Positions 8,658-58,182 of a stretch of 64,000 bases of DNA are shown here, piece by piece. Every line of letters starts with the position of its first letter. Positions within the stretch are counted from its first letter, which is position 1. The notes beneath the pieces were generated by a model that saw nothing but the letters and a program-made list of their open reading frames with translations, did no database searches and was not told the DNA's origin. Source of the DNA: Cellulophaga sp. L1A9 (GTDB lineage Bacteria > Bacteroidota > Bacteroidia > Flavobacteriales > Flavobacteriaceae); assembly GCF_009797025.1 (NCBI RefSeq), contig NZ_CP047027.1, positions 1,860,001 through 1,924,000 on the forward strand. The letters run 5' to 3'. The translations under genes were made by a program, and so were the position numbers.

Positions 8658-9032
8658 ATGAAACCCCATAAAATAGCCCTTTTAGATAACTACCAGCTCT
8701 ATCAATTGCTACAAAACCAAGCCATTGATACCCGTACCCTAGCAGCACTCAAAAAAGAATATGCTTCGCGTAAATTATCGGGATATGAACAAGAGCGATT
8801 GGCACAAAAATATGCCGCTGTCCATACGGATGTTAATACGGCTTTAGAAAAAAAACCTTGGAGCCCTATTTTAACAGGCTTTGCCTATAACAAGCATTTT
8901 AGGTACATCGCCTTCTTAAAAGTGCATGGACGTAAACAAGAAGCTAAGCAACACCTACTAGAACTCTATCTAGGTCTTGCGCTCTACTTTTTAGGGTTTA
9001 TTGCTTTCCTGTTACTCTTCCGCACGCTATAA
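8658..9032 (+). CDS. Hypothetical membrane-tail protein, intact paralogue
   Basis: 124 residues. The N-terminal 90 are helical and soluble, with the block LDNYQLYQLLQNQAIDTRTL. The C-terminus is one strong hydrophobic segment (about 103-121) followed by RTL, so it looks tail-anchored. A truncated relative with a similar leader lies at 10043-10168. The family is unknown. It is 58 bp upstream of an SH3-domain gene and may be cotranscribed with it. Confidence 0.6.
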   Translation: MKPHKIALLDNYQLYQLLQNQAIDTRTLAALKKEYASRKLSGYEQERLAQKYAAVHTDVNTALEKKPWSPILTGFAYNKHFRYIAFLKVHGRKQEAKQHLLELYLGLALYFLGFIAFLLLFRTL

Positions 9033-10008: not shown

Positions 10009-10042
10009 ACCATTTACAAGAACAAGACATCGTTTTAAAGTC

Positions 10043-10168
10043 ATGGATACCCCTAAAATTAATCGCTTAGACAACTACCATCTGTATCAATTACTACAAA
10101 ACACTTTAATTGATGCCACTACCCTAGCGGCGCTAAAAAAAGAATATGTTTTGAATTTAAATTCTTGA
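10043..10168 (+). pseudogene. Truncated paralogue of the 8658-9032 gene
   Basis: ATG 10043 opens 41 codons. The first 35 align clearly with the N-terminus of the protein at 8658 (LDNYHLYQLLQNTLIDATTLAALKKEYV against the equivalent stretch). The frame then departs into NLNS and stops. The leader is also alike: TTACAAG followed by CGTTTTAAA and TC before the ATG, as at 8627-8657. The copy was therefore cut about 40 bp before the 3' end of the minus-strand rhomboid gene. This looks like a recombination scar. Confidence 0.65.
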
Positions 10169-10212: not shown

Positions 10213-10746
10213 TCAGCGTCTATTTTTTGTAAGTATAAATGCTATTAAAACACCTGATATAGCACCAAAAAGATGACCTTCCCATGATATGTAACTTTCT
10301 AAAGATGGAAATATTCCCCAAATTAAACCCCAATAAACTAACGTAACAGCAATAGAGACGAGGATAGGTATGAATTTTTTTTCTAAAAAACCATTTACAA
10401 TTAAAAATGCTACAAGACCATATATGAGGCCACTAGCCCCAATATGATTTCCGTTTCTTGCAAATATCCAAACAAGTATTCCGCCAACTATAATTGTAAA
10501 TAAAACTACAGATGTTGCTTTTTTAGGGTAAAAATAATTTAGGGTTGTAAGTAATATAATTAGGGGTGCTGTATTTGAAATTAAATGCGAAATACCACCA
10601 TGTAAAAAAGGCGATGTAATAATACCAATAAGTCCATTTACAGTACGGGGGACGATACCAAAATTAGCAATGGGTGTAAAAAGACTAATCCCATAAACGA
10701 TGTAAATAAATAGAACAAATATGATACTGTTTTTAATCGGAATCAT
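10213..10746 (-). CDS. Rhomboid intramembrane serine protease
   Basis: 177 residues with six membrane segments, the compact bacterial rhomboid layout. The GASG motif carries the likely nucleophile Ser105. His158 in EGHLFG is the partner. The HxxxN pair is His54 and Asn58 (HLISN), which stabilises the oxyanion in this family. Rhomboids cleave membrane-spanning substrates within the bilayer. The start codon overlaps the last 4 bp of the ion-channel gene (10743-10746), so the two are translationally coupled. It is the last gene of the module running down from 18375. Confidence 0.9.
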   Translation of the reverse strand: MIPIKNSIIFVLFIYIVYGISLFTPIANFGIVPRTVNGLIGIITSPFLHGGISHLISNTAPLIILLTTLNYFYPKKATSVVLFTIIVGGILVWIFARNGNHIGASGLIYGLVAFLIVNGFLEKKFIPILVSIAVTLVYWGLIWGIFPSLESYISWEGHLFGAISGVLIAFILTKNRR

Positions 10747-11516
10747 ATATCAATACTTTTCCCGCAATGTGGGCAGTTACACTCTTTGCTTTTCTTTTTA
10801 GTTTGAATTCTGCTAATAAAGGCAGAACTAATGATACCTGTAGGAAGCGCAACAAAACCAATACCTATTAAGGCAATAACACCACTTAGTAATTTACCCA
10901 AACCTGTAACTGGGTAAACGTCTCCATAACCAACCGTAGTTAATGTAGCTATTGACCACCAAAAGGCATCTCCAATATTTGAAAATTGCTCTGGTTGATC
11001 ATCATGCTCTATATAAAACATTAATGTAGATGATAAAATCATCAACACAAAAGTTACAAAAATTGTAATGGTTAGTTCGGCTTTTGTTTCTTTAAAAATG
11101 TATTGGATAGTTTTTAAAGAACTTGAATACCTGCCAAGTTTGAAAATTCTAAGTAATCTAAATAAACGAAGAATTCTAATAACCCTTAAATCAAAAGGAA
11201 AAATAAAGGGCAAGTAAAAAGGGAGAATAGCCAGTAAATCAATAATTCCGCTGGTAGAAAAGGCAAAATTAAGCCGTTCTCTTTTATCTTCTTTTGTTTT
11301 GTCAGAAACCCAAATTCGTATAAAATATTCAAGAGTAAAAACAATAACAGAAAACAGTTCAAAAAAATAAAAAGCGAGACTAAATTTAGTTCTCAGTTCA
11401 TCATACGATTCAAGTATTAAAGCGAGTATGTTTAATACAATAAGCGCATAAATGAATTTGATGAAATACTGATTGTAATTAATAAAATCGCTTACTTTTT
11501 TTTTCATTTTATTCAA
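10743..11516 (-). CDS. Voltage-gated potassium channel (Kv-type)
   Basis: 257 residues with six membrane segments. S4 (about 111-129) has regularly spaced arginines (RVIRILRLFRLLRIFKLGR), the voltage sensor. The pore helix leads to TVGYGD at 194-199, the K+ selectivity filter. The C-terminal tail carries Cys246, Cys248 and Cys251 (CNCPHCG), which may bind zinc and is unusual for this class. It lies 35 bp after the AdoMet decarboxylase gene and overlaps the rhomboid gene. In the setting of a PspA gene it probably senses or sets membrane potential. That role is inference. Confidence 0.9.
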   Translation of the reverse strand: MNKMKKKVSDFINYNQYFIKFIYALIVLNILALILESYDELRTKFSLAFYFFELFSVIVFTLEYFIRIWVSDKTKEDKRERLNFAFSTSGIIDLLAILPFYLPFIFPFDLRVIRILRLFRLLRIFKLGRYSSSLKTIQYIFKETKAELTITIFVTFVLMILSSTLMFYIEHDDQPEQFSNIGDAFWWSIATLTTVGYGDVYPVTGLGKLLSGVIALIGIGFVALPTGIISSAFISRIQTKKKSKECNCPHCGKSIDI

Positions 11517-11551
11517 GTTTTTATGTAAAACATATTTTAAAAAAAAGTGTT

Positions 11552-11857
11552 TTACACTTCTTTATCCTCTATTTTATCAATAAACGATATTAGTTTTTCT
11601 TCGTTACAACTACTTAATTCAATATAACTTTTATTGCTTTCAGGAAAGGTGTGAACGGCTAAATGGCTTTCGGCTAGTAGCCAAAAACAAGTATATCCTT
11701 GCTCAGGAAAGTGGTGCTCATTAAAAAGAATAATGGTGAAACCAGCTTGCTTTAGCAATTTGCTGTATACTTTTTTTAACTCTTCGGGATCTGTACAAGT
11801 AGACCAAAAGTTATGGTTGTATATATTTGCTTCTGTATGTTTATAATTTGTATTCAT
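11552..11857 (-). CDS. speD: S-adenosylmethionine decarboxylase proenzyme
   Basis: Start ATG 11857 (101 residues) lies 2 bp after the aminopropyltransferase stop. An in-frame start at 11875 would overlap it. The motif ESHLAVHTFPE carries the Glu63-Ser64 autocleavage site that yields the pyruvoyl cofactor. His69 and Cys84 fall at the spacing expected from the Thermotoga enzyme (Ser63, His68, Cys83). The enzyme makes decarboxylated AdoMet, the aminopropyl donor used by the adjacent gene. Residues and spacing are directly seen. Activity is inferred from the family. Confidence 0.88.
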   Translation of the reverse strand: MNTNYKHTEANIYNHNFWSTCTDPEELKKVYSKLLKQAGFTIILFNEHHFPEQGYTCFWLLAESHLAVHTFPESNKSYIELSSCNEEKLISFIDKIEDKEV

Positions 11858-11859
11858 AT

Positions 11860-13416
11860 TTAGTATAAATCCCAATTACCATCTAAATAATACTGATATA
11901 AAACAGGGTTGTGTACTTTATTAACTTCAATACTATCATTTAATTTGAAAAAATCTTTACCAAATGATGTTATTAATTGCATAGCCTCATTATTTATCCA
12001 GTTTGTTTGAACATTTTTAAATTGAATATTTTGAATTTTCTGTTTTAATTGCTCAGAAGTTATCGTTGTGTTTTTTGTTCCAAGAACCCAACCCCATTCT
12101 CCCATAGAAATTACTTGGTTGTGTAATCTTACGGTTGTAAAACCTGCAGATTTTAATGTTTCATCAATACAACTAAAAGCTTTTGTTGCAAAATATGGAC
12201 TGCCCGCTTGTGTAATAATTAAGCCATTAGGCCTAAGTTTTCTGTAACAAAGCGAATAAAACTCATGAGAGTACAACCTACCTAGTTCTATGTTTCTTGG
12301 GTCAGGCAAATCGGCAATAATGACATCATAAAAGTCAGTAACATTTTGCTCTAAATGTATGTAGGCATCTTTATTGTAAATCTGTAATTTTTTACTGTTC
12401 ATGCTACCTTGGTTGATATTTATTAACACAGGGTGATTGGTTCCTAAATCTGTCATTTTCGGATCTAGATCAACCATATCTATTTTTTCAACACTTGGGT
12501 ATTTTAAAATTTCTCTAACCGCACAACCATCGCCACCACCAAGTATTAGTATACGTTGCGGATTTGGGTGTAATTGCATGATTGGGTGCACCAAAGGTTC
12601 ATGATACATTTTTTCATCAATAGAACAGAATTGTAAGTTACCGTTTAAATATAGCCAATGTTCATCTTTCCATTCGGTTAAAACGATATTCTGATATTTA
12701 GTTTGCTCGGAATAGACAATTTTATCTTTATATTTTTTTTGCTCTCCCCATTGTATGATAGGTTCTGTAAAAGCAATACCGGTAATTAAAATACCGAATA
12801 CAATGGTTAACACTGCTTTTAATTGTACTATCTGTCGCTTTTTAATTTTATCTTTAAAACGATAAAAAACAATTAACGCGACTAAAAAATTGATAATTCC
12901 AAGGACAAATGGGGTATAAGACAATCCTAAAATAGGCAAGCCTATAAATGCAAAAAATACACCTCCGATAAGGCTTCCGTAATAGTCTTTTTCTAATATA
13001 GAAGAAATGTTACTTTTTAAATCTTCGTACTCTTTATTAATTCTTACTACTAACGGAATTTCTAATCCAATTAATAACCCAATTAGCATACATAAAGAAT
13101 AAATAACAATGCCGTAATATTCACTTACAGCGGCAAGTGTATATACCAGTACAGACGAGAATGCTACGATTAAAGATAATGAAGCTTCTAAAATTAGAAA
13201 ATTCTGAATTAAATTTTTCGTAATTAACTTACTTAACCGACTACCTAAGCCCATGCAAAATAGCATAAGAGATACAATCATTGTCCATTGAAAAATTGAA
13301 TTTCCAATAAAATAAGTAGCTAATGTAGATAGGGTGTATTCAGCTACAATCCCTGCAAAGCCTGTTGCAAAAATTGCTGCTTTTAATATGAAAGAGTTTT
13401 TTTTTAGATACTCCAT
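11860..13416 (-). CDS. Membrane-anchored aminopropyltransferase (spermidine synthase-like)
   Basis: 518 residues. The N-terminal ~220 form about seven membrane segments. The C-terminal ~295 are a spermidine synthase fold: GGGDG at 293-297, DLDP at 316-319, and ADLPDP at 368-373 supplying the catalytic aspartates. It would transfer an aminopropyl group from decarboxylated AdoMet to a polyamine at the membrane. The start overlaps the end of the DUF350 gene by 13 bp, and speD follows after 2 bp. This is the membrane-fused form known from PspA/DUF350 neighbourhoods. The true acceptor is unknown and may be a peptide rather than a free diamine. Confidence 0.88.
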   Translation of the reverse strand: MEYLKKNSFILKAAIFATGFAGIVAEYTLSTLATYFIGNSIFQWTMIVSLMLFCMGLGSRLSKLITKNLIQNFLILEASLSLIVAFSSVLVYTLAAVSEYYGIVIYSLCMLIGLLIGLEIPLVVRINKEYEDLKSNISSILEKDYYGSLIGGVFFAFIGLPILGLSYTPFVLGIINFLVALIVFYRFKDKIKKRQIVQLKAVLTIVFGILITGIAFTEPIIQWGEQKKYKDKIVYSEQTKYQNIVLTEWKDEHWLYLNGNLQFCSIDEKMYHEPLVHPIMQLHPNPQRILILGGGDGCAVREILKYPSVEKIDMVDLDPKMTDLGTNHPVLININQGSMNSKKLQIYNKDAYIHLEQNVTDFYDVIIADLPDPRNIELGRLYSHEFYSLCYRKLRPNGLIITQAGSPYFATKAFSCIDETLKSAGFTTVRLHNQVISMGEWGWVLGTKNTTITSEQLKQKIQNIQFKNVQTNWINNEAMQLITSFGKDFFKLNDSIEVNKVHNPVLYQYYLDGNWDLY

Positions 13417-14273
13417 GTAATTAATATAGCAGAAGCAACATAAGCAAAGGCTTCAATTAACCCTGCACCGACATTTGGTTTTTCTTGATTGATAATTTCA
13501 TCCGTAAGTTTTCTTCCTGGTAATAAAACTTTATCAGTGAAAATACGCATTATAGGTAGTAGAATGCAACCTATTACAGTTTGCAGTGTAATATCAATTA
13601 ATGTTGTTGTCCAATCTACAAAAGGATCTAAAATAGCATTCATGGTAATAATACCAATGGCTAATATTGCTCCAGAAAAACTTATTCCAGCCGCAACATT
13701 ATCCTTTTCTACTTCGTCATGTATGCTATAACCCATCCATGCGATAAATATTTTAGAAGCAATAATTAAAACAACATTACCGATAACCCAGTATATAAAA
13801 AATGTTGAAAGCCCTTCAATTAATGTTTCAGATTCTCCGACTAACGCACCATATAAAATAAGTCCGTTTGCAATATAAATAGCAGCTTCAATAACCCCTG
13901 AACCTTCATTTTTATCAGTAATTATTTCTTTCTTTAAATCAAATTTATTTAGAATTACTTTATTACTAATCCAAGCAGCTAATAATAGCAATAAAATAGC
14001 AAAAATTCCATAAATGAAAATGTGCTGAATATCAGTAATAAAGTCAAAACTCTCCCCTACAATAGCCCCACCAATAGCGATAATTAAAGCAGCAAAATAA
14101 CCCACATAAGAAAGGATGAAAGCAAAGTTATCTTTCTCAACCAGTTCTTCCTGAATATTAATACTTGGGTGTAAAAGTTTATAAGCTAATTTACCAATAA
14201 TAAAAATGATAAATCCACTTAAGATGTACCCCAATGAATGTGATAAATCTAAAATATCTATGTATTTGTCCAT
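13404..14273 (-). CDS. DUF350 membrane protein, duplicated domain (YjfL-like)
   Basis: 289 residues with eight membrane segments arranged as two similar halves (about 1-140 and 141-289). Each half has a conserved acidic or basic loop before a G-rich helix, as in DUF350. E. coli YjfL is a single-unit relative. The family is linked by genome context to PspA-type proteins and polyamine enzymes. Its biochemical role is unknown. Spacing is 23 bp after the lipoprotein gene, and it overlaps the aminopropyltransferase start. Confidence 0.85.
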   Translation of the reverse strand: MDKYIDILDLSHSLGYILSGFIIFIIGKLAYKLLHPSINIQEELVEKDNFAFILSYVGYFAALIIAIGGAIVGESFDFITDIQHIFIYGIFAILLLLLAAWISNKVILNKFDLKKEIITDKNEGSGVIEAAIYIANGLILYGALVGESETLIEGLSTFFIYWVIGNVVLIIASKIFIAWMGYSIHDEVEKDNVAAGISFSGAILAIGIITMNAILDPFVDWTTTLIDITLQTVIGCILLPIMRIFTDKVLLPGRKLTDEIINQEKPNVGAGLIEAFAYVASAILITWSI

Positions 14274-14296
14274 GTTTTTCTAGCGTTTTGTGCGTA

Positions 14297-15094
14297 TTAT
14301 TTTCCGAAACCTCCGCTTCGAGAGCGAGAAGAACTTGAATTACTATACCTGTTTGTGTTTCTTGACGTTTGGCTTGAGCCATTGTAACTTTTACTTGAGC
14401 TGTAGCCTTTAGATTTTAAAGCAGAAGAGCTTCTGGTTACATTAGTTCTAACCTTGTCTTTAAATGTTTTAGGTTTTGAGTTCCAGTTCGAGTTTGCATT
14501 TTTATACGTAGAAGTACCAAAATTTTTATTTCTACCATAATAGCTACTTCTTCTGTAATGATTAGTTCTGTAATAATCATAATCGTTTCTGTAGTATCTA
14601 TGGCTAGGACCATAAAAAAGAGAGCTCATAAAATGGTATTGTCCATAAAAAGCCCAGAAAGAACTACCATTGCTATGTGTTTGCCAATGCCCATATTTTT
14701 CGTTACCTACATAATTGCTATACCCTGCAGGAGTAGATTGTTTATCTAAAACACCCTCTTTTTTAGATAATATAGTCATGCCTAAATCTTCCTGATAATC
14801 TTCAAAAGTAATGGCAGAAACTTCTTGCCATTCTGTTGTTTTTATATCAAAATCATCTTCAACAGCTTCTGTGGTGTTTTTAGCTTTTTCAATAATGATT
14901 TTATATTTATGATAATATTTATCAGTATCTTCTTTGTAATCCATATCAGCAAGAATTACACTGTAATTCTGAGTGTCAATATGTGTTGTAATAATGGTGT
15001 CTAGAGGAGATTTAAGGTACTTTTTACGCTCTTCTCCACAAGATACAATTAGCAGAAGCATACTTGTAAAAAGTATCGTTTTAAATAGTTTCAT
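14297..15094 (-). CDS. YjfM-like lipoprotein with Ser/Arg/Gly-rich tail
   Basis: 265 residues with a lipobox ending in VSC (Cys19). The first half is acidic, with a predicted beta sandwich. The middle has a Tyr/Arg-rich block (residues about 165-190: HRYYRNDYDYYRTNHYRR). The tail is dominated by Ser, Asn and Arg and ends in SRSGGFGK. This resembles the tail of YjfM/DUF1190-type proteins that accompany PspA and YjfL. The homology is by pattern and context. The basic low-complexity tail would suit modification or binding to acidic envelope polymers. Confidence 0.6.
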   Translation of the reverse strand: MKLFKTILFTSMLLLIVSCGEERKKYLKSPLDTIITTHIDTQNYSVILADMDYKEDTDKYYHKYKIIIEKAKNTTEAVEDDFDIKTTEWQEVSAITFEDYQEDLGMTILSKKEGVLDKQSTPAGYSNYVGNEKYGHWQTHSNGSSFWAFYGQYHFMSSLFYGPSHRYYRNDYDYYRTNHYRRSSYYGRNKNFGTSTYKNANSNWNSKPKTFKDKVRTNVTRSSSALKSKGYSSSKSYNGSSQTSRNTNRYSNSSSSRSRSGGFGK

Positions 15095-15123
15095 TGTAGT
15101 TGGTTTAAAATCAAATTTAATGT

Positions 15124-15675
15124 TTAATAATTGTCTGCAACCGGTAAAATGTTAGAAATTTCAATTTCTTTAATAATAATTCCCTTACTCACCTCAAATT
15201 CTTCGTCGTCATATTGCTCAATAGAAAGTGTTTTTTCTTCCTCTTCATCTAAGTAATTATATGAGACTAGTTCTTCCCAATTTGCGGCATCAATTTCTTT
15301 AGAATAACCAGGTGTTTTTTCGTCTAGGTAATACATAACACCTTTGTAATTTATTTTTTTTGGAGGCTTCTGGTTAGACTCCATATAATCACAAACATCT
15401 TCTCCTAGTTTTCTTAATTTTACTTTTTCCGATAAAGTTACAACCAAACCTCCATCATCTTCAATATGTAAAAACTTTTCAATAGTACCGTTTTTGATAA
15501 CAAATTCACGAGTAAAGTAACTATTCCCCCAATCGTATTCAAACAAAGCAGTAACGGTCCAAGTTTCTATACCATATTCAAAAATATAGCCTTTACCCAA
15601 ATCCCTAACGGTTATATTGGTAGGGTCGTAATGTCTTTCTTCCTTTTTTTTCTTTAAAAAATCAAATATTCCCAT
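15124..15675 (-). CDS. DUF4178 protein
   Basis: 183 residues, soluble and acidic. An N-terminal Lys-rich tail is followed by a domain with the pattern WTVTALFEYDWGNSYFTREFVIKNG and KYKGVMYYL-type strands, as in DUF4178. That family often accompanies PspA/YjfJ and YjfL genes and probably takes the place of DUF2491 in E. coli (YjfK). The start lies 3 bp after the helicase stop, so it is cotranscribed. No catalytic motif is visible. Confidence 0.75.
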   Translation of the reverse strand: MGIFDFLKKKKEERHYDPTNITVRDLGKGYIFEYGIETWTVTALFEYDWGNSYFTREFVIKNGTIEKFLHIEDDGGLVVTLSEKVKLRKLGEDVCDYMESNQKPPKKINYKGVMYYLDEKTPGYSKEIDAANWEELVSYNYLDEEEEKTLSIEQYDDEEFEVSKGIIIKEIEISNILPVADNY

Positions 15676-15678
15676 ATG

Positions 15679-18375
15679 TTATTTGTTTATGAGTTGTTTT
15701 AGTTTTGCTTTAGCTTGTATTTTATTTTCACTCCAAAATCGATAATGTAATGGTATTGTATGAATACCAACTCTTGCAAAAGTTTTGTAACGTTCTATAG
15801 TAAATGCATTATAAAATTGACCAGGATACCCTATAAGGTCTATAAAGTAATTTTCATCATTATGAGTGAAAAATACATCCAAAATAGACCCCGCATAAGG
15901 GTATCCGCAATTAATTTCTTTAATTTCAATACTATTTAAATAAGATGTAATTTCTTTTTGAAAAACATCTTCAGATAATTCGTTTTCCTTTTTCTGATAC
16001 TGATAATTTTCAATAAAACTTAAATACTTTAAAAATAGAGAATCTTGTTTTAAATCTTTTTTAGCGACAGATGTAAATATGTATTGAAATGATTTAGCTC
16101 TTGTAGTACCTACGTTTAAGACCTCGCTTTTATTTAAATGGTTATAAGCAGAATGGTGTGTGTTTTTGCAAACAGTAAAAGAAATAAGAATAATTTCTCT
16201 TTCTGAACCTTGAAAATTATAGGGTGTACCACAAAGCAAATCAAAGCGTTTTATAATTGTTATATCAAATTTATCACCAATTAATTTATTGATGTGTTTT
16301 GCTTGGTTTGCAAATGGCGTAATAATACCTAAAGAAGGTACTGTAGCATTACCCTCATGCAGTTTAATAAGCTCGGTAAGTTTTTCAATTACCTTATTTG
16401 CTTCTTTTACATTAACACCTTGGATGTTACGCTCACCATTAATATAATTTATTTCAATTTGTTTTTTAGAAGTGAACTCAGTTGTCGATTTTATTATTTC
16501 TAATTGTTGATCGTAAAATTCTTGATTATTGAACTCTATCAATGAAGGTGTAGATCTGTAGTGTTCTCTTAAAAAAGTAACTTGATCTTGGTTAGAAACT
16601 TTACTTATATAAATATCTAAAATGCTTCTATTTCTATAGTCAAAAATAGGGTCTTTAGGTAGCTTATGTTTGTCTAGTAAAGTTAACTGTTGTGCTTTAC
16701 CAATAAATGAATAATGCCTTAATTGATTTGGGTCTCCGCAAATAACAACGTGTTTTGCTCTATAAATAGCAGGTAGCGCAGTAGCAATATCGCATTGTGT
16801 TGCTTCATCTATAATTACTAAATCAAATATTTCTTTTTTTAATGGAAAGACAGTGTTTAATTCTGATAAATGAGCCAGCCAAAGAGGAAAAACTTCAAGG
16901 ATTTTCGTAAAATCTAGTTCTTCAATTATTTTTTTTGATTCACTAAAACTAGATGCGGATAATGCATCGTAATAGCGCACTAGTGTTTGCCTATTTTTAG
17001 CAGCATTTTTATTACTCTGCTCAAGGCTTAAGTTTTTAACATATGTTTTAAGCTCACTAACAATGAGGCTTGTGTTTATATTTACATAATGTATTGTATT
17101 TAAAAAATCGAGATTTTCGTTTTTAATAAACTGTAATAGTATTCGATGAACTTTTTCCTTTAAAGTCAATTTATCTTTAAAAGTCAGGTTCGAAAGTTTT
17201 AATTCTTTAGCAACTATCTTTTCATACTTTGTAATGAGTGTCTTTGATCTTTTATGTAAAGAATGTATGTTGCTTGAGTCAGTATAAGTTCTTGATACAA
17301 TGCCACTAATTTTCTTCTTAATTTTAGATTTTAAACTTATTTTAAACCGATTACCAGAGGTGTGAATAAGTAAGTCCTTTAACTCAAAATCTTTTATCAG
17401 GTTCTCTCTAATTACTTCAACAGCCTGTTTAGTTTTAGAGACTACAAGTACTGATTTTTTTTTAAGAATAGCATCTATAGCAATAGCACTTATACTATAT
17501 GATTTTCCTGTGCCAGGTGGGCCAATAATTACCGAGTTATTATATTTTTGACTATTGTAAAGGGCTTTTAACTGCTCTGGGTTTAGTCTGTTTTCAAGGT
17601 AAGTTTCTGATGGGCTATTTGTACTTGTTGTTTGGTTGAATAATTCTTTTAAAGCTGCGTTAAACTCGTTATTACTTGCAATACTTTCTAAATCGTTAAT
17701 GATTTTTGTAGAAGCAATCGATTTTTCGATAAATACAGTTCCGCTAGCCGGAACAATTTTAAAAGGCTCTTCGGTGGTATGGTCTTTAAGTTGCTTCCTT
17801 ATTTTTGTAATATTCCAGTTTTGAGGAAAAAAAGTAAGCTCTGAAGTATCTATATTTTGAGCAAATGAATTGAAAGCTTTTTCTATTTCGAATGCATCTT
17901 CAATTTTATCAGAAAATAGCTCTGTTAGCCTGTTTTCTAACTTATCTTTTGAAACATCATCTTTAGCAATTTTATTTAAAAAAGAAGTATTTAATAAAAA
18001 GTCGTTTTGATTTATTCTAATGAATTTATCATCATCTTTTTCTACAATATCACAGGGGTATAATACTAAAGGGCTACAAATTATAGGATCAGTACTAAGC
18101 CCTGTTGGTGTTTCTTTTCCTATAAAATAAAAACTAGCATAATACAATGATTTTTCTAATTTGTATAAGAGTAGTTCTTTCTCTAGCTTTTCAAGGTCTT
18201 TATTGTCATAATAAATTATAGGTGATTTTTGATTTATCAGCTGCTCATTATCTTTTACAAACCACTTAAATTTATACTTATTATTTAATATGTTATTTAC
18301 CGTAAACTCTTTATAGTCTAGCTTATAACAATCTTTAAAGTAATTAAAAAAGTTCGTTGCCGAATTAACACGCAT
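15679..18375 (-). CDS. SF1 helicase (Upf1/Dna2-like) with C-terminal nuclease-like domain
   Basis: 898 residues. An N-terminal region of unknown fold (1-260) is followed by a helicase core. Walker A GPPGTGKS is at 285-292 and Walker B DEAT at about 520. GDPNQLRH, the motif IV-like REHYRS and the C-terminal QGSERE and NVGTTRAK motifs V and VI are present. After the core a ~94-residue domain (805-898) has ILDV (Asp833), YFIDL (Asp846), ERYKTFARVGIHTI and HYRFW. This layout resembles the Vsr/DUF559-type nucleases fused to such helicases. COG1112-type helicases recur in defence loci. DUF4178 starts 3 bp after its stop. The N-terminal role is unknown. Confidence 0.85.
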   Translation of the reverse strand: MRVNSATNFFNYFKDCYKLDYKEFTVNNILNNKYKFKWFVKDNEQLINQKSPIIYYDNKDLEKLEKELLLYKLEKSLYYASFYFIGKETPTGLSTDPIICSPLVLYPCDIVEKDDDKFIRINQNDFLLNTSFLNKIAKDDVSKDKLENRLTELFSDKIEDAFEIEKAFNSFAQNIDTSELTFFPQNWNITKIRKQLKDHTTEEPFKIVPASGTVFIEKSIASTKIINDLESIASNNEFNAALKELFNQTTSTNSPSETYLENRLNPEQLKALYNSQKYNNSVIIGPPGTGKSYSISAIAIDAILKKKSVLVVSKTKQAVEVIRENLIKDFELKDLLIHTSGNRFKISLKSKIKKKISGIVSRTYTDSSNIHSLHKRSKTLITKYEKIVAKELKLSNLTFKDKLTLKEKVHRILLQFIKNENLDFLNTIHYVNINTSLIVSELKTYVKNLSLEQSNKNAAKNRQTLVRYYDALSASSFSESKKIIEELDFTKILEVFPLWLAHLSELNTVFPLKKEIFDLVIIDEATQCDIATALPAIYRAKHVVICGDPNQLRHYSFIGKAQQLTLLDKHKLPKDPIFDYRNRSILDIYISKVSNQDQVTFLREHYRSTPSLIEFNNQEFYDQQLEIIKSTTEFTSKKQIEINYINGERNIQGVNVKEANKVIEKLTELIKLHEGNATVPSLGIITPFANQAKHINKLIGDKFDITIIKRFDLLCGTPYNFQGSEREIILISFTVCKNTHHSAYNHLNKSEVLNVGTTRAKSFQYIFTSVAKKDLKQDSLFLKYLSFIENYQYQKKENELSEDVFQKEITSYLNSIEIKEINCGYPYAGSILDVFFTHNDENYFIDLIGYPGQFYNAFTIERYKTFARVGIHTIPLHYRFWSENKIQAKAKLKQLINK

Positions 18376-18449
18376 ATTATAACTGTTAAAAACTAATTTT
18401 GAAAGGTTTACTATTAACGTATTATTTTTTTAAATATTGGTATTGTAAA

Positions 18450-18493
18450 TAAACAACAAGCTCTTCTTTGGTTAAAGAAGAGCTTGTTGTTTA
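18450..18493 (-). terminator. 20-bp perfect hairpin between pspA-like and helicase genes
   Basis: The arms 18450-18469 and 18474-18493 are perfectly complementary around a GGTT loop. On the minus strand the 3' arm ends in a T-rich stretch (TTGTTTATTT). The hairpin could terminate transcription from the regulator-side promoter or attenuate readthrough into the helicase. I see no good TAnnTTTG box between it and the helicase start. Confidence 0.6.
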
Positions 18494-18518
18494 CCGAAGT
18501 TATAGTATTGAACTAATA

Positions 18519-19217
18519 TTATAACCCCATTTTTTTCTTAAGGGCTTCAAGGTCATTTTCGGCATTTATTTGTTTGCCATCTAAAACTTTATCAAGCTCT
18601 TCATCAATACTTTTAGATTCGTTTGCAATATCTCCATAAGCTTCAGCCAAGGCTTCTTCTTCAGTAACCTTCTCTTTCATTTTTTCTAACATGTTTACAG
18701 TGCTAGAACTATCAATTGCTGCCATTTGCTTATTTAAGTTTTTGGTAGCTTTCGAAACTTTTACACGAGCTTTAAGGGTTTTTAGTTCATTTTCCCACTT
18801 GCTAATGTTATTTCTTAAAACATTTACATTAGTTTCTAATTGAGAAACTGATTGAGAAAATTTTTCGACTTCAACAGTACAACGGTTTGCATGTTCTGCG
18901 TTTTCTTCTTTTTTAACTAAAGCTTCAGTCGCTAAACGATCTCCATCTTCGTTAGAAAGTTCTTCTTTACCTACTTTTTGCAATATTAACATAGCCTTAT
19001 TTTGGTAATCTTTAGCTTTTGTTTCGAACTGTACTTTTTCGTTTTGAGAACGAATTAGCATAGCTTTTACCTGAGCAAGCCCTTCAAGAGCCTCGCCTAA
19101 ATCACCTTTCATGTCCTTAATGCCTTGTTCAGTCATTTTAATAGGATCTTCCATTTTATCAATAGCAGAATGAGCTTCAGCTTTACCTACGTTAAATAAT
19201 CTTTTAAATATATTCAT
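18519..19217 (-). CDS. PspA/IM30 family protein (YjfJ-like)
   Basis: 232 residues, almost entirely coiled-coil helix, as in PspA, Vipp1 and YjfJ (ESCRT-III superfamily). The N-terminus MNIFKRLFNVGKAEAHSAIDKMEDPIKMTEQGIKDMKG is the typical amphipathic helix followed by the DP motif. Length matches the family. These proteins bind damaged inner membrane and stop proton leakage. It follows the YjfI-like gene by 23 bp, so they form one transcript. DUF350, DUF4178 and polyamine enzymes nearby place it in the YjfJ rather than the classical PspABC branch. Confidence 0.9.
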   Translation of the reverse strand: MNIFKRLFNVGKAEAHSAIDKMEDPIKMTEQGIKDMKGDLGEALEGLAQVKAMLIRSQNEKVQFETKAKDYQNKAMLILQKVGKEELSNEDGDRLATEALVKKEENAEHANRCTVEVEKFSQSVSQLETNVNVLRNNISKWENELKTLKARVKVSKATKNLNKQMAAIDSSSTVNMLEKMKEKVTEEEALAEAYGDIANESKSIDEELDKVLDGKQINAENDLEALKKKMGL

Positions 19218-19240
19218 GTTTTTTTATTAATAGTTTGTAA

Positions 19241-19636
19241 TTAGGCTTTAGAAAACTGAATTATGTTTTCAGAATATTCACTTAACAATAAGCTTAGAGA
19301 GTTTATAGAACCTTCTAATTCGTTTAAATCAAGGTTTTCAATTTGTAATGTATCTCTAAAAATTACTTTTTCTCCTGTTTCATCTAAAACAAAAGCACCA
19401 TGTATAATGTCTCTGTTTTTTTGTAATAATTGTTTAAAGATATCTTCACTTGGCTTTGTAATTTTAAAAATATACTGCTCAATTATTAAAATTGGGCTAG
19501 CAATTCCTATAATCAAATTGTTGATGCCTTCATCCTCATTTTGAATCATTAAAATTCCATCTTTCTCGTTTTCATGAGTAATGTTATAGTTCAACTCAAG
19601 CAAGTAATTTTTAATAATTTTAAATTGTTTTTTCAT
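19241..19636 (-). CDS. DUF2170 protein (YjfI-like)
   Basis: 131 residues, close to the 133 of E. coli YjfI. The protein is soluble, with a beta-alpha-beta layout and the words GILMIQNEDEG, HGAFVLDETGEKVIFRDTL and NLDLNELEGSINSL that fit DUF2170. The function is unknown. It is the first gene after the divergent promoter at 19746-19776 and is followed by the PspA-like gene. The pairing with a YjfJ-like protein supports the assignment. Confidence 0.78.
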   Translation of the reverse strand: MKKQFKIIKNYLLELNYNITHENEKDGILMIQNEDEGINNLIIGIASPILIIEQYIFKITKPSEDIFKQLLQKNRDIIHGAFVLDETGEKVIFRDTLQIENLDLNELEGSINSLSLLLSEYSENIIQFSKA

Positions 19637-19731
19637 AGATTTTTACGAATTTTTCTGACTTTTCAGAGCTTTCATCCTTATAAGTTTTTGCTAATTATTT
19701 TAGAACTATCTTTGTTTTCTCTAAAAATTGT

Positions 19732-19739
19732 TACTTTTG
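19732..19739 (+). promoter_or_regulatory. Promoter for the HTH/S24 regulator
   Basis: TTTG at 19711-19714, 17 nt, then TACTTTTG at 19732-19739 exactly fits the Bacteroidetes promoter (TTTG, 17-23 nt, TAnnTTTG). A second candidate, TATCTTTG, lies at 19707-19714. The start codon at 19793 would leave a leader of about 45 nt. Confidence 0.6.
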
Positions 19740-19745
19740 ATGTCT

Positions 19746-19776
19746 CAAATATAACTATTGCCGCTTAAATTGCAAA
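19746..19776 (-). promoter_or_regulatory. Promoter for the YjfI/PspA operon
   Basis: On the minus strand TTTG (19773-19776), 19 nt, then TATATTTG (19746-19753) is a full consensus promoter. Its start site would fall near 19740, inside the regulator promoter. The two promoters therefore overlap face to face, and a bound regulator or polymerase could exclude the other. The leader to the ATG at 19636 is about 100 nt. Confidence 0.6.
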
Positions 19777-19792
19777 TTTAATTAGCTGAATT

Positions 19793-20536
19793 ATGTCGTT
19801 CTTCGGGAAAAATATAAAAAAAATTAGAGGAATAAAAGGATTAAGTCAAGAAGCTTTTGCAAATGTATTCCATTTAAAAAGAGCAACTTTAGGTGCTTAT
19901 GAAGAGGGCAGGAGCGAACCTAAGATTGATACGATTATAAAAGTTGCTAATTATTTTAGTATATCTATTGATGATATGCTAACTAAAGATATAACTGTTA
20001 ACCAATTATTGCGTTTTGATAGTGATATAACTACAGATGTAAATCAAATTGTAAAAGCAGGTTTTTCAGAGGTACCATTCGTTAATGCTCTCAATCGTAA
20101 AATTTTTATTGAAGAATTTAAAAGTTCACAAAGTTATAGCTCCTTACCTAAAATTAAAATACCTGTAGAAGCTAGCGTTCATTTATTAGCCTATACCGTT
20201 CAAGATTTATTTATGGAATCGAATGGTGAAGGATTGTTTCTTAACGATGTTGTTGTTGGCGAACATGTAGCGCCAAAAGATCTTGTTCAAGGAGATGTAG
20301 TAATTGTATTGCTAGATGAAGAATTGTTCATTAGAAGATTTGATAGTTCAGATACAGGGTATAATTTGTTAGCTGATCATATTAATATTCCGCCACTATT
20401 AATACCTTATAGTGTTTCTGTGTATTTCTGGAAGGTTTCGTATGTATTTTTAAAACAATACCCAAAATTTGCTTCGAAGTTAGAGGCTAGAATAAACCAG
20501 TTAGATGCTGAGTTAAAGCGTTTATCTTCAAAATAG
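19793..20536 (+). CDS. HTH regulator with S24/LexA-like C-terminal domain
   Basis: 247 residues. A Cro/CI-type helix-turn-helix (about 8-60: KIRGIKGLSQEAFANVFHLKRATLGAYEEGRSEPKIDTI) is followed by a linker and a C-terminal domain with the S24 peptidase-like pattern (DVVVGEHVAPKDLVQGDVVIVLLDEELFIRRF). A catalytic Ser/Lys pair is not evident, so it is probably non-cleaving. A short coiled coil ends the protein. It is divergent from the YjfI/PspA genes with overlapping promoters, so it very likely controls them and itself. Confidence 0.8.
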   Translation: MSFFGKNIKKIRGIKGLSQEAFANVFHLKRATLGAYEEGRSEPKIDTIIKVANYFSISIDDMLTKDITVNQLLRFDSDITTDVNQIVKAGFSEVPFVNALNRKIFIEEFKSSQSYSSLPKIKIPVEASVHLLAYTVQDLFMESNGEGLFLNDVVVGEHVAPKDLVQGDVVIVLLDEELFIRRFDSSDTGYNLLADHINIPPLLIPYSVSVYFWKVSYVFLKQYPKFASKLEARINQLDAELKRLSSK

Positions 20537-20632
20537 ATTTAAAGATAATTGCTTTGCTGTTCTATTTCCGTTTGATGTAAGAGGTGAAAAAATCTAATGG
20601 GAATTAAAGAAAAATTGTATTGATTGGGCGTA

Positions 20633-27008: not shown

Positions 27009-27217
27009 CTTTTTTTGATGTTGGTCTTTAGGTTAATCAGGTACTGGCTTGGGATTGAATCGCCTCTTTCATCTATGTATTATGATAAAGACGAATTACT
27101 ACATAAACGTCACTCTTTAACTATTATTTTCTGCTGAGGTTTTAAAGTGAATGTTCTGCTTTGGCTATAAGTTTTAAGAGCATTAATAGCTTCTCTATTC
27201 TAATGATTTCATAAGTT

Positions 27218-30200
27218 GTCTTTGAAAATTCAACAACCGTTCATGAAATAATAAAGAACTGTCCTTGAAATTGTACTTGCTATGATCTTGAAAAATCAAT
27301 AACTGTCATTGAAAAATCAACAACTGTCATTGAAATTGTACTTGCTATGATGTTGAAAAATCAACAACCGTCGTTGAAACTATGAAGCATATTATAAAAT
27401 GAAATTGTCAGTTCGAGTGATTTTCATGAAGTGAAACGAAAGGAAAAGTGTATCGAGAACCCATGCCTGATAAAAAGCTTCTCGATACGAATCACTCCCC
27501 CGCTATCGCTACAAAATCATTCACTCGAAGTGACAGTTCTATTTAAACAACCGTCATTGAAATAATCAACAACTGTCATTGAAATATCAAGACTAAAAAA
27601 AACGAAATTGTCAGTTCGAGTGCTTTTCATGAAGTGAAACGAAAGGAAAAGTGTATCGAGAACTCATGCCTGATAAAAAGCTTCTCGATACGAATGACTT
27701 CTCCGCTATCGCTCCAAAATCATTCACTCGAAGTGACAGTACAATTTCAACAACTGTCCTTGAACTTGTACCTGATGTGATGTTGAAAAATCAACAACTG
27801 TCATTGAAATATCAAGACTAAAAAAAAATTAAATTGTCAGTTCGAGTGGTTTTCATGAAGTGAAGCGAAAGGAAAAGTGTATCGAGAACCCATGCCTGAC
27901 AAAAAGCTTCTCGATACAAATGACTTCTCCGCTATCGCTACAAAATCATTCAATCGAAGTGACATCCCAGCTTCAACAACTGGCAATGGAATTCAAGGAC
28001 TGTCATTGAAATTCAACAACCTTCATTGAAAAATCAAGCCTAAAAAAAATAAAATTGTCAGTTCGAGTGCTTTGACCAGAGGGAAAAGTGTATCGAAAAC
28101 CCATACCTGATAAAAAGCTTGTCGATAGGAATAATTCCTCCGCTATCGCTACAAAATCATTCACTCAAAGTAACAGTACAATTTCAACAACTGCTCATAA
28201 AAAATCAACAACTGTCCTTGAAATTGTACTTGCTATGATGTTGAAAAATCAACAACCGTCATTGAAAAATAAAACCTCAAAGAAAAACGAAATTGTCAAT
28301 TCGAGTGCTTTTCATGAAGTGAAACGAAAGGAAAAGTGTATCGAGAACCCATGCGTGATAAAAAACTTCTCGATACAAATGACTTCTCCGCTAGCGCTGC
28401 TAAGTCATTCACTCGAAGTGACATCCCAGTTTCAACAACTGCTCATTAAATAATGAACAACTGGCAATGGATTCAAGGACTGCCATTGAAATTCAACAAC
28501 CGTCATTGAAAAATAAAACCTAAAAAAAATAAAATTGTCAGTTCGAGTGGTTTTCATGAATTGAAACGAAAGGAAAAGTGTATCGAGAACCCATGCCTGA
28601 CAAAAAGCTTCTCGATACAAATGACTCCTCCGCTATCACTACAAAATCATTCACTCGAAGTAACAGGACAATTTCAACAACTGCTCATGAAATAATGAAC
28701 AACTGTCCTTGAAATTGCACTTGCTATGATCTTGAAAAATCAACAACCGTCATTGAAAAAATAAAACCTAAAAGAAAAACGTAAGTGTCAGTTCGAGTGC
28801 TTTTCATGAAGTGAAGCGAAAGGAAAAGTGTATCGAGAACACATACCTACTAAAAAGCTACTCGATAGGAATGACAGTACAATTTCAACAACTGTTCATG
28901 AAATAATGAACAACTGGCAATAGAATTCAAGGACTGTCATTGAAAATCAACAACCGTCATTGAAAAATAAAACCTAAAAGAAAAACGTAAGTGTCAGTTC
29001 GAGTGCTTTTCATGAAGTGAAACGAAAGGAAAAGTGTATCGAGAACCCATGCCTGATAAAAAGCTTCTCGATACAAATGACTTCTCCGCTATCGCTCCAA
29101 AATCATTCACTCGAAGTGACAGTACAATTTCAACAACTGTTCATGAAATAATGAACAACTGGCAATGGAATTCAAGGACTGTCATTGAAAATCAACAACC
29201 GTCATTGAAAAATAAAACCTAAAAGAAAAACGTAAGTGTCAGTTCGAGTGCTTTTCATGAAGTGAAGCGGAAGGAAAAGTGTATCGAGAACCCATACCTA
29301 CTAAAAAGCTTCTCGATAGGAATGACAGTACAATTTCAACAACTGTTCATGAAATAATGAACAACTGGCAATAGAATTCAAGGACTGTCATTGAAAATCA
29401 ACAACCGTCATTGAAAAATCAAGTCTAAAAGAAAAACGAAATTGTCAGTTCGAGTGCTTTTCATGAAGTGAAACGAAAGGAAAAATATATCGAGAACCCA
29501 TGCCTTACAAAAAACTTCTCGATACAAATGACTTCTCCGCTATCGCTCCAAAATCATTCACTCGAAGTGACAGTACAATTTCAACAACCGTTCATGAAAT
29601 AATCAACAACTGTCCTTGAACTTGTACTAGAAGTAGTAATACGAATTCAACAACCGTCATTGAAAAATAAAACCTGAAAAAAAACAAAAGTGTCAGTTCG
29701 AGTGCTTTTCATGAAGTGAAACGGAAAGAAAAATATATAGAGAACCCATGCCTGATAAAAAGCTTCTCGATACAAATGACTTCTCCGCTATCGCTCCAAA
29801 ATCATTCACTCGAAGTGACATCCCTGTTTCAACAACTGCTCATGAAATAATCAACAACTGTCCTTGAAATTGTACTTGCTATGATGTTGAAAAATCAACA
29901 ACTGTCATTGAAATATCAAGACTAAAAAAAATGAAATTGTCAGTTCGAGTGGTTTTCATGAAGTGAAACGAAAGGAAAAGTGTATCGAGAACTCATGCGT
30001 GATAAAAAACTTCTCGATACAAATGACTTCTCCGCTATCGCTCCAAAACCATTCACTCGAAGTGACAGTTCTATTTCAACAACCATCATTGAAAAACCAA
30101 AACTAAAAGAAAAAACGAAATTGTCAGTTCGAGTGCTTTTCATGAAGTGAAACGAAAGGAAAAGTGTATCGAGAACCCATGCCTGATAAAAGCTTCTCGA

Positions 30201-39034: not shown

Positions 39035-39037
39035 AAG

Positions 39038-39108
39038 AGGCATCGAGCGGATTCGAACCGCTGTACAAGCTTTTGCAGAGCTCTGCCTAGCCACTCGGCC
39101 ACAATGCC
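39038..39108 (-). tRNA. tRNA-Cys (anticodon GCA)
   Basis: The minus strand folds as a full cloverleaf of 71 nt. The acceptor stem is GGCATTG with CGATGCC (one G-T pair) and discriminator T73, which is typical for Cys. The D arm is normal. The anticodon loop CTGCAAA has U33 and anticodon GCA. The T arm is AGCGG-TTCGAAT-CCGCT. CCA is not encoded. A terminator follows at 39001-39034. Confidence 0.93.
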
Positions 39109-39183
39109 AATTTAGGATTGCAAATTTACAATAATTAATTAAAATAGAAATTAAATATTGCAATGATTATTCAATTTTAATGC

Positions 39184-39230
39184 AAAAAAGCTCTAAATCT
39201 TTCTTTAAAAAAATTTAGAGCTTTCTTTTT
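39184..39230 (-). terminator. Hairpin terminator between the two tRNA-Cys genes
   Basis: AAAAGCTCTAAAT and ATTTAGAGCTTT form a strong stem with T-runs on both strands. It would end transcription of the second tRNA-Cys-like gene before the first. Confidence 0.7.
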
Positions 39231-39352
39231 CGATTTTTCTTTTTCAGCTAATGGGTATAAAACAAACGAATAACTTGTTTTAAAACACCAAAACTATTAT
39301 AATTCAACATTATTTGTAAATCGTAAAAATAATGTTTTAGACTTGATACTGG

Positions 39353-39424
39353 AGGCATCGAGTGGACTCGAACCACTATGAAAGTTCTTGCGGAACTTTG
39401 TCTATCCAATTCGACCACAATGCC
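39353..39424 (-). tRNA. tRNA-Cys-like gene (anticodon GCA) with C33
   Basis: 72 nt fold as a cloverleaf: acceptor GGCATTG with CGATGCC, D arm GTC/GAC, T arm AGTGG-TTCGAGT-CCACT and discriminator T. The anticodon stem AAGTT with AACTT is solid (A26-T44 can extend it to six pairs). The seven-base loop reads CCGCAAG, so the anticodon is GCA for Cys but position 33 is C instead of the universal U. It shares the acceptor sequence with the intact tRNA-Cys but differs through the D, anticodon and T arms. It may be a variant, a decoder with altered function, or a decaying copy. Confidence 0.75.
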
Positions 39425-55431: not shown

Positions 55432-55715
55432 TTGTTATTTAGTTTGGTATATAAATGATCAATACACGTTTAAATGCATTGAAATATGCTTATAATCACG
55501 TTTTTACACGCAACTAGTGGGTCTGCATAACAAATATGATATAAATTGATATGTTGATGAATTTATTGTTGTGGCTTGTTATTTTTATGTGGTGTACTGC
55601 AATTTAGCGATGGTCTCCGTGTTTTTAGGCCCTCTTCTTACAGCATGTCTTTTATTTTATTTTTTCAGGCAGTTTGGACCTTATAAATTGTGTTATTTTG
55701 AAAGTTTATAACACG

Positions 55716-55752
55716 AAAAAAGGCTTTCAGAATTAATCTGAAAGCCTTTTTA
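55716..55752 (-). terminator. Terminator between sprD and sprB
   Basis: A 15-bp perfect stem (AAAAAGGCTTTCAGA with its complement around ATTAA), with T-runs on the minus strand, lies 19 bp after the sprD stop. It suggests that sprB has its own promoter within 55432-55715. That 280-bp stretch has no gene, and I see no full TAnnTTTG box in it. Confidence 0.85.
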
Positions 55753-55770
55753 TTTTTTTATTTTGAGGTG

Positions 55771-58149: not shown

Positions 58150-58182
58150 GTTGTGGTTAAATGGTTTGTTGGTAAAACTTGG

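Follow-up and report, generated by a model that had tools for sequence, protein, structure and literature searches.

Gene content and layout

The window is the whole stretch of Cellulophaga sp. L1A9 DNA analysed here, 64,000 nucleotides long. Ten linked genes lie on its minus strand at positions 10213 to 19636. All ten open reading frames were confirmed where the sequence-only reading had placed them, and nine have family support from Pfam or NCBIfam profile matches. The first (19241-19636) encodes a small protein of the CesT/Tir superfamily (PF22550, CesT_Tir_1, 7.5e-58). It had been read as DUF2170, a family that a passage of PMC11237479 places, with YjfI, in this same superfamily. After 23 bp follows a PspA/IM30 family protein (18519-19217; PF04012, PspA_IM30, 7.5e-42), and then a UPF1-like SF1 helicase with a C-terminal Vsr/EDxHD-like fold (15679-18375; AAA_12 and AAA_11, 6e-20 and 3e-19). 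Next are a DUF4178 protein (15124-15675; PF13785, 5e-17), a lipoprotein with the lipobox IVSC (14297-15094), assigned from its sequence and position, and a double DUF350, YjfL-like membrane protein (13404-14273; PF03994 in two stretches, 1.5e-49). The lipoprotein has zero Pfam matches, and its earlier label, YjfM-like, found no profile behind it.

The remaining four genes encode a membrane-fused aminopropyltransferase (11860-13416; Spermine_synth, PF01564, 1e-36; NCBIfam NF002956, 584 bits), the AdoMet decarboxylase SpeD (11552-11875; PF02675, AdoMet_dc, 1.6e-16), a voltage-gated K+ channel (10743-11516; PF00520, Ion_trans, 5e-35) and a rhomboid protease with an intact GxSG serine and histidine (10213-10746; PF01694, 8e-22). 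A TVGYGD filter and an arginine-rich S4 can be read in the channel. Divergent from all of these is an HTH_3 regulator on the plus strand (19793-20536; 2e-11), with a weak S24-like C-terminal part whose Peptidase_S24 match is under its cut-off. The tight spacing described earlier held for the 4-bp and 13-bp overlaps and the short gaps, but the PspA and helicase genes are 143 bp apart, which breaks the pattern. SpeD, with its listed TTG start, makes a further overlap of 16 bp.

The 143-nt gap contains a 22-bp perfect-stem hairpin on the minus strand (18448-18495). For the whole gap the folding energy is -33.3 kcal/mol (z -6.48), and none of 200 shuffles did as well. The hairpin is kept in G307, a genome of another species in the genus, and stems of at least 10 bp stand 3' of PspA in 5 of 20 loci examined, the window and G307 included. 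It is a candidate terminator or expression step-down. The pattern TTTG-N19-TAnnTTTG, which we take to be the Bacteroidota promoter consensus, gives one promoter candidate for CesT-PspA (19746-19776, minus strand) and one for the HTH gene (19711-19739, plus strand). Two of the three matches in the window fall in this divergent gap, and their number is not above chance (3 against 4.8 expected). A sigma-70 scan of the window was uninformative (57 sites against 54.6 expected).

Transfer of the cassette

The ten genes and the divergent HTH regulator are one transferable cassette of ~10.4 kb. The interval given in the sequence-only reading stops short of the HTH gene, which moves along with the ten and forms one end. 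In G307 the cassette lies at a different site. There, window positions 10223-20538 are matched at 91.5% DNA identity, with no other match when 30 kb of G307 are compared to window positions 1-30000. Three relatives (G308, G300 and G299) are empty at the equivalent site, and relatives' left-flank alignments end at 10010-10047. By eye, an apparent truncated paralogue of the open reading frame at 8658-9032 sits at this left junction (10041-10168, plus strand). GC content is 0.301 in the cassette and 0.353 and 0.363 in the flanks. Between the window species and G307, dN/dS of the ten genes ranges from 0.008 (PspA) to 0.108, with 0.074 for the helicase; all are under purifying selection.

Core and optional genes

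Recurrence was surveyed at 44 loci anchored on DUF4178. To be counted, a gene had to lie no more than 12 kb from DUF4178; in three genomes that were read as several pieces, any place in the fetched sequence sufficed. The counts therefore describe neighbourhood and not a shared transcript. The constant core is DUF4178 with the lipoprotein (40 loci), DUF350 (39), the membrane aminopropyltransferase (42) and usually SpeD (34). The optional genes are PspA (29), the K+ channel (19, of the window's type or a TrkA type), the rhomboid (9), a flotillin-AAA block (flotillin in 10 and YqiJ in 11, both missing from the window cassette) and the helicase. A related HTH gene is found at nine loci. Since PspA is out of reach in 15 of the 44, some at contig ends, it is not essential to the core. 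The sequence-only reading was right that PspA, DUF350 and polyamine enzymes are linked and that this was known; some K+ channel recurs in related loci as well. The two less familiar members fared differently: the rhomboid recurs, whereas an intact helicase is present at only three loci, two of them near-copies, with a decayed remnant at one more. The module occurs in several families of the phylum, and the survey separates what is constant in it from what is optional.

The rhomboid protease

The rhomboid is, judged by its motifs, a recurrent and intact member of the module, and we found no earlier report of it there. S105, H158 and N58 are invariant across nine aligned sequences. We take the GxSG serine and the histidine to be the catalytic residues, and the asparagine to serve the oxyanion. 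The gene is confined to loci that carry PspA (9/29 against 0/15, p 0.014 with relatedness ignored). No solved relative was found by sequence for the rhomboid set at the thresholds used. Shigella rhomboids clear orphan subunits of membrane complexes, according to a passage of PMC7232013; the substrate here could also lie outside the operon. The rhomboid offers a testable intramembrane-protease link to PspA.

The helicase-nuclease

The helicase is intact at 898 aa. The nuclease-like tail claimed for it was found to adopt the Vsr/EDxHD-like fold. R868 and W881 are invariant, and D833 and D846 are present in at least 90%, of 39 relatives; the tail is a candidate Vsr/EDxHD endonuclease. A search of 299 genomes gave 26 that passed E 1e-10. 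Nine were counted as orthologues (six full-length, the fragments in G079 and G086, and the remnant in G002), and 17 were dropped because only part of the helicase was covered.

Could the helicase-nuclease be a recurrent effector of CesT-PspA modules in Flavobacteria, where sensed membrane damage leads to nucleic-acid attack or repair? We consider this unlikely, though several observations speak for it. Besides its purifying selection, the gene stands beside CesT-PspA or core genes at four different positions. It is inside the operon in the window and in G307, and the G002 remnant lies directly before DUF4178. In G277 it follows a channel gene and a transglutaminase-like gene on a contig that also carries the lipoprotein, DUF350, transferase and SpeD genes; the CesT-PspA half is on a second contig that shares 99 identical bases with the first, but one of the two continues for ~530 bp with unlike sequence, so that the join is no more than presumed. 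In G312 it adjoins an HTH gene with CesT-PspA on the other side, and G288 has the same arrangement with one gene more in between. Helicase and DUF4178 also co-occur above expectation in the family sample when relatedness is ignored: the helicase is in 5 of 11 genomes that have DUF4178 and in 4 of 288 that do not (p 3e-6), with 4/10 against 4/226 by genus (p 1e-4), and 4/11 against 2/288 for full-length helicases only (p 1.5e-5).

Against an effector role stand the three intact copies in 44 module loci and the decay in G002, where the neighbouring genes are still open. The helicase lies away from module genes in G117, G259 and G033, and so it does in a wider scan: of 34 relatives whose available sequence exceeds 9 kb, 33 have none of the searched module genes nearby. 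This count covers 37 (L062-L098) of 80 loci, with 43 (L099-L141) outside it and three of the 37 too short. It ignores channels and HTH genes, and it takes in near-copies (three from Aquimarina and three from Pseudomonas) and an Aureivirga that is G259 again. The linked state amounts to four changes on the tree, a count that includes L080, a weak linked locus with unrelated kinds of gene between the helicase and a PspA-like gene. Helicase and module may also both gather where a genome has taken up many foreign genes. A binomial estimate of chance linkage was set aside as evidence, as it assumes uniform placement. Overall, the helicase seems to be an optional add-on and is no proof of an anti-phage system. 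It is quite unlikely that Flavobacteria PspA membrane-damage modules repeatedly recruit a Vsr-tailed helicase and, separately, a dedicated rhomboid, so that a membrane lesion would lead to intramembrane proteolysis and nucleic-acid processing within one mobile aminopropyl cassette.

Aminopropyl enzymes

An ordinary spermidine operon with chance neighbours is a very doubtful account. In its favour, SpeD retains the ESH, His and Cys positions, whose roles we take as given, of solved bacterial enzymes. The transferase (518 residues; PF01564 at 268-447, NF002956 across 7-515) aligns with solved aminopropyltransferases over ~190-225 residues and keeps their ordinary sequence features, so free spermidine is a possible product. 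NspC, of another spermidine-type route, is absent from all 18 genus genomes. On the other side, the same membrane genes accompany the enzymes in other families of the phylum, and 12 of the 18 genus genomes have neither enzyme. Both occur in the same six, always as neighbours (adjacent or ~3 kb apart), which argues against housekeeping spermidine synthesis; two of the six carry them in the transferable cassette. In the four without it, SpeD and the transferase flank an open reading frame of 390 aa. A scan of the G308 copy, the only one covered, identified it as a glutathionylspermidine-synthase-type (GSP_synth) protein. Li et al. in 2019 reportedly found such AdoMet decarboxylases active, and the membrane fusion is said not to replace spermidine synthase. 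Membrane fusion is not described in the searched passages of three later polyamine papers. The 12 genomes that lack the enzymes, beside the two with the cassette, give a clean background in which to find a putative aminopropylated target.

Defence context

That the locus is an anti-phage system, with phage entry sensed at the membrane and answered by nucleic-acid attack as first proposed, is highly improbable. In its favour, distribution is patchy (3 of the 18 genus genomes have a PspA relative), the genes transfer as a unit, and the helicase shares its SF1 UPF1-like core with the helicase parts of Hhe, Mokosh, PDC-S37 and anti-phage ProA. Against it, these matches are partial (898 aa against models of ~1110-1910 positions) and far under NCBIfam cut-offs, PADLOC families are not in excess beside the gene, and no relative was found in viral contigs. 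The PADLOC comparison (E 1e-15) gave 28 families among 123 proteins near the helicase and 61 among 100 from the distal parts of these stretches; in both sets, all of the 25 families listed had a single matching protein. The proteins scanned were 123 of 127 near and 100 of 104 far, with module genes of L042 and L061 left out, one of these by a length limit, and seven loci skipped as near-copies or for want of flanks. Phage records gave a single helicase match, at 27% coverage. Two plasmid records carry the helicase. One of them, from Persicobacter, has it at full length, and the 26.7 kb read there contain none of the other module genes.

Proposed role

The reading we favour, with about even confidence, is a horizontally transferred, aminopropyl-based membrane-maintenance cassette with one divergent regulator and optional add-ons. 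We infer an acceptor at the membrane and a stress signal. SpeD would supply decarboxylated AdoMet, and the membrane-fused transferase would place aminopropyl groups onto a membrane-side acceptor rather than make bulk spermidine. DUF350, for which no solved relative was found by sequence at the thresholds used, may act with DUF4178 and the lipoprotein in handling or sensing the aminopropylated product. CesT/Tir and PspA would form an ESCRT-III-like coat on damaged inner membrane, the K+ channel may tune membrane potential, and the rhomboid might trim the module's membrane proteins when they are damaged or have failed to assemble. The core would not need the helicase-nuclease.

Comparison with known systems

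Several described operons share parts of the cassette. The ATP-grasp (glutathionylspermidine-synthase-like) operons, the third group of Ravi et al. 2024 (PMC11237479), resemble the window in their polyamine chemistry and in having DUF350 and types of K+ channel; the cassette genes lack their ATP-grasp. The CesT/Tir-PspA-YqiJ-flotillin-AAA operon of that paper and the bac cluster of P. aeruginosa (PMC10948618) share the CesT-PspA head, and the window is without their YqiJ, flotillin and DUF3686 ATPase. The place between PspA and DUF4178 that the helicase has in the window is taken by YqiJ-flotillin-ATPase genes at several other loci, among them G002, G057 and two from Tenacibaculum.

The closest system is the second group of Ravi et al., a CesT/Tir-PspA-spermine synthase operon, and the paper already holds the aminopropylation idea. 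The window has its adjacent CesT/Tir and PspA, its N-terminal membrane domain on the spermine synthase, and its DUF350 and DUF4178. By lipobox and position, with no model of that domain used, the lipoprotein fits the 'Ctha_1186' type. DUF350 has 8TM and the synthase a 7TM fusion in that group, and the double DUF350 and membrane-fused transferase here correspond to them. The core had already been described, with six of the ten genes matching. The words 'helicase' and 'rhomboid' are absent from its main text, supplements aside. Beyond this group, as described there, the window adds SpeD, the voltage-gated K+ channel, the rhomboid, the helicase-nuclease and the divergent HTH regulator.

A mobile cassette

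The ten minus-strand genes at 10213-19636 and the divergent HTH regulator at 19793-20536 (+) form one mobile cassette. In the congener G307, the counterpart of 10223-20538 aligns at 91.5% identity (10,322 alignment columns); beyond this segment, no alignment was found between 1-30000 of the window and the 30 kb of G307 compared. Three other congeners (G308, G300, and G299) lack the cassette and keep the flanking DNA at 85-96% identity, with the site occupied by ~0.8 kb of other DNA that has a 235-255-aa ORF. The GC content of the inserted DNA is 0.301, versus 0.353 and 0.363 for the flanks. A truncated paralogue of ORF 8658-9032, read by eye, lies at the left junction, and a relative of the cassette PspA is found in 3 of the 18 genomes of the genus. 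Profile searches found no integrase or transposase among the eleven cassette genes. The ten minus-strand ORFs of the sequence-only reading are all present where it placed them, but the interval it gave was slightly too short because the HTH regulator is part of the transferred block.

Nine of the ten minus-strand ORFs have Pfam or NCBIfam support. The exception, 14297-15094, shows a recognizable lipobox, and 40 of the 44 related loci carry a homologue. The genes are closely spaced apart from PspA and the helicase, whose 143-bp spacer contains a 22-bp perfect hairpin (-33.3 kcal/mol, matched by 0 of 200 shuffles), also kept in a second species. Two Bacteroidota-type promoter candidates point away from each other between the first gene (CesT/Tir) and the HTH gene; the pattern search gave 3 sites in the window versus 4.8 expected by chance. 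The K+ channel (10743-11516) has a short Cys-rich C-terminal tail (CNCPHCG), which resembles part of a zinc ribbon, with a weak DUF7575 match.

Elsewhere in the window, 27150-30000 has dense tandem-like repeats, visible as many overlapping blastn matches to the relatives' flanks. Two tRNA-Cys genes (39037-39424, ARAGORN) lie ~240 bp apart; only the first passes the Rfam gathering score, and the other copy may be divergent. The region 40873-60438 encodes a 4852-aa protein that has SprB repeats and a CHU_C type IX secretion signal domain, along with two neighbours, one with a PorP/SprF domain and one a further CHU_C protein.

Constant and optional members

DUF4178 was found in 11 of 299 genomes of the family (single-protein query), 19/395 of the order, 10/395 of the phylum, and 7/40 chosen for bearing the helicase; these sets overlap in part and their E-value limits differ. 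The fetched loci were pooled with G307 to give 44, and genes were counted within 12 kb of DUF4178 or, for the three genomes read in several pieces, anywhere in the fetched sequence. These loci are not independent (G307 and the window are near-copies, and there are several congener pairs and two loci from one genome), some stop at contig ends, and six are from genomes selected for carrying the helicase. The counts are the membrane aminopropyltransferase in 42, the lipoprotein in 40, DUF350 in 39, AdoMet decarboxylase in 34, PspA in 29, CesT in 28, a K+ channel of some type in 19, DUF3686 ATPase and YqiJ-like genes in 11 each, flotillin in 10, the HTH gene in 9, and the helicase in 3.

Some loci are long chimeric operons in which a YqiJ-flotillin-DUF3686 ATPase block is joined to the DUF4178-DUF350-aminopropyltransferase core (L047 with L143; L048 with L142; L050 with L144; L177, L178, L229, L230, L232, L234, and L235), merging two operon groups that had been described separately. 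The last ~530 bases of L048 (contig C63 of G277), past its 99-bp C45 overlap, have no module-like coding and a foreign- or adaptor-like look.

Polyamine enzymes

AdoMet_dc and Spermine_synth each occur in 6 of the 18 genomes of the genus, the same six, and two of these have both inside the cassette. In G308, G300, G301, and G312, the two lie ~3 kb apart at another locus, separated by a 390-aa ORF; in G308, the only genome scanned for it, this ORF is a glutathionylspermidine-synthase-type protein. Since the other 12 genomes have neither, this patchy occurrence speaks against a housekeeping role in spermidine synthesis and favours a special aminopropyl product. The genus offers a good genetic background for finding such a product. 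In SpeD, the ES, His, and Cys positions match those of solved enzymes. Li and colleagues reportedly described, in 2019, active AdoMet decarboxylases in genomes that also encode spermidine-synthase-like proteins fused to a membrane domain; the latter are said not to replace spermidine synthase and to adjoin DUF350.

The second genus locus (2855-11300 of L243 in G308; likewise L244-L246) encodes a membrane-fused aminopropyltransferase and AdoMet decarboxylase. L243, the one scanned, additionally has the glutathionylspermidine-synthase-type gene, an Atg22-like transporter, and an M48 peptidase.

The rhomboid

The rhomboid is a recurrent member, present in 9 of the 44 loci, and no earlier report of it in PspA/spermidine synthase operons was found in the literature searched, as far as those texts were available. 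Its loci span Flavobacteriaceae, a second family of the order, a Salinivirgaceae MAG, and another Bacteroidales MAG. It is confined to PspA-bearing loci (9/29 vs 0/15, p 0.014 by a statistic that ignores relatedness). Nine aligned sequences, eight from module loci and one from L080 (Kangiellaceae), all share the catalytic Ser, His, and Asn. Shigella rhomboids clear orphan subunits of membrane complexes (PMC7232013); by analogy, the cassette rhomboid may do the same.

In L080 (15515-19515), a related rhomboid lies in a row between a PspA-like gene and YqiJ-like/flotillin-like genes, an example of a rhomboid in another kind of PspA operon.

Comparison with known systems

The helicase (15679-18375, minus strand) is an optional member whose nuclease part is predicted. 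Its likeness to Hhe, Mokosh, PDC-S37, and ProA is limited to partial model matches, and defence families show no excess among its neighbours versus genes taken from the outer ends of those DNA stretches; the proposed role in phage defence gained no positive evidence. PMC11237479 alone mentions DUF4178 in the literature searched, and its main text, as distinct from its supplements, has zero occurrences of "helicase" and "rhomboid"; its references include Li et al. 2019 (Biochem J 476:2579). The cassette is a mobile form of an already known kind of operon: its core gene set is the second group of CesT/Tir-PspA operons in the main text of Ravi et al. 2024 (PMC11237479), where PspA systems are proposed to monitor polyamines or the aminopropylation of other substrates.
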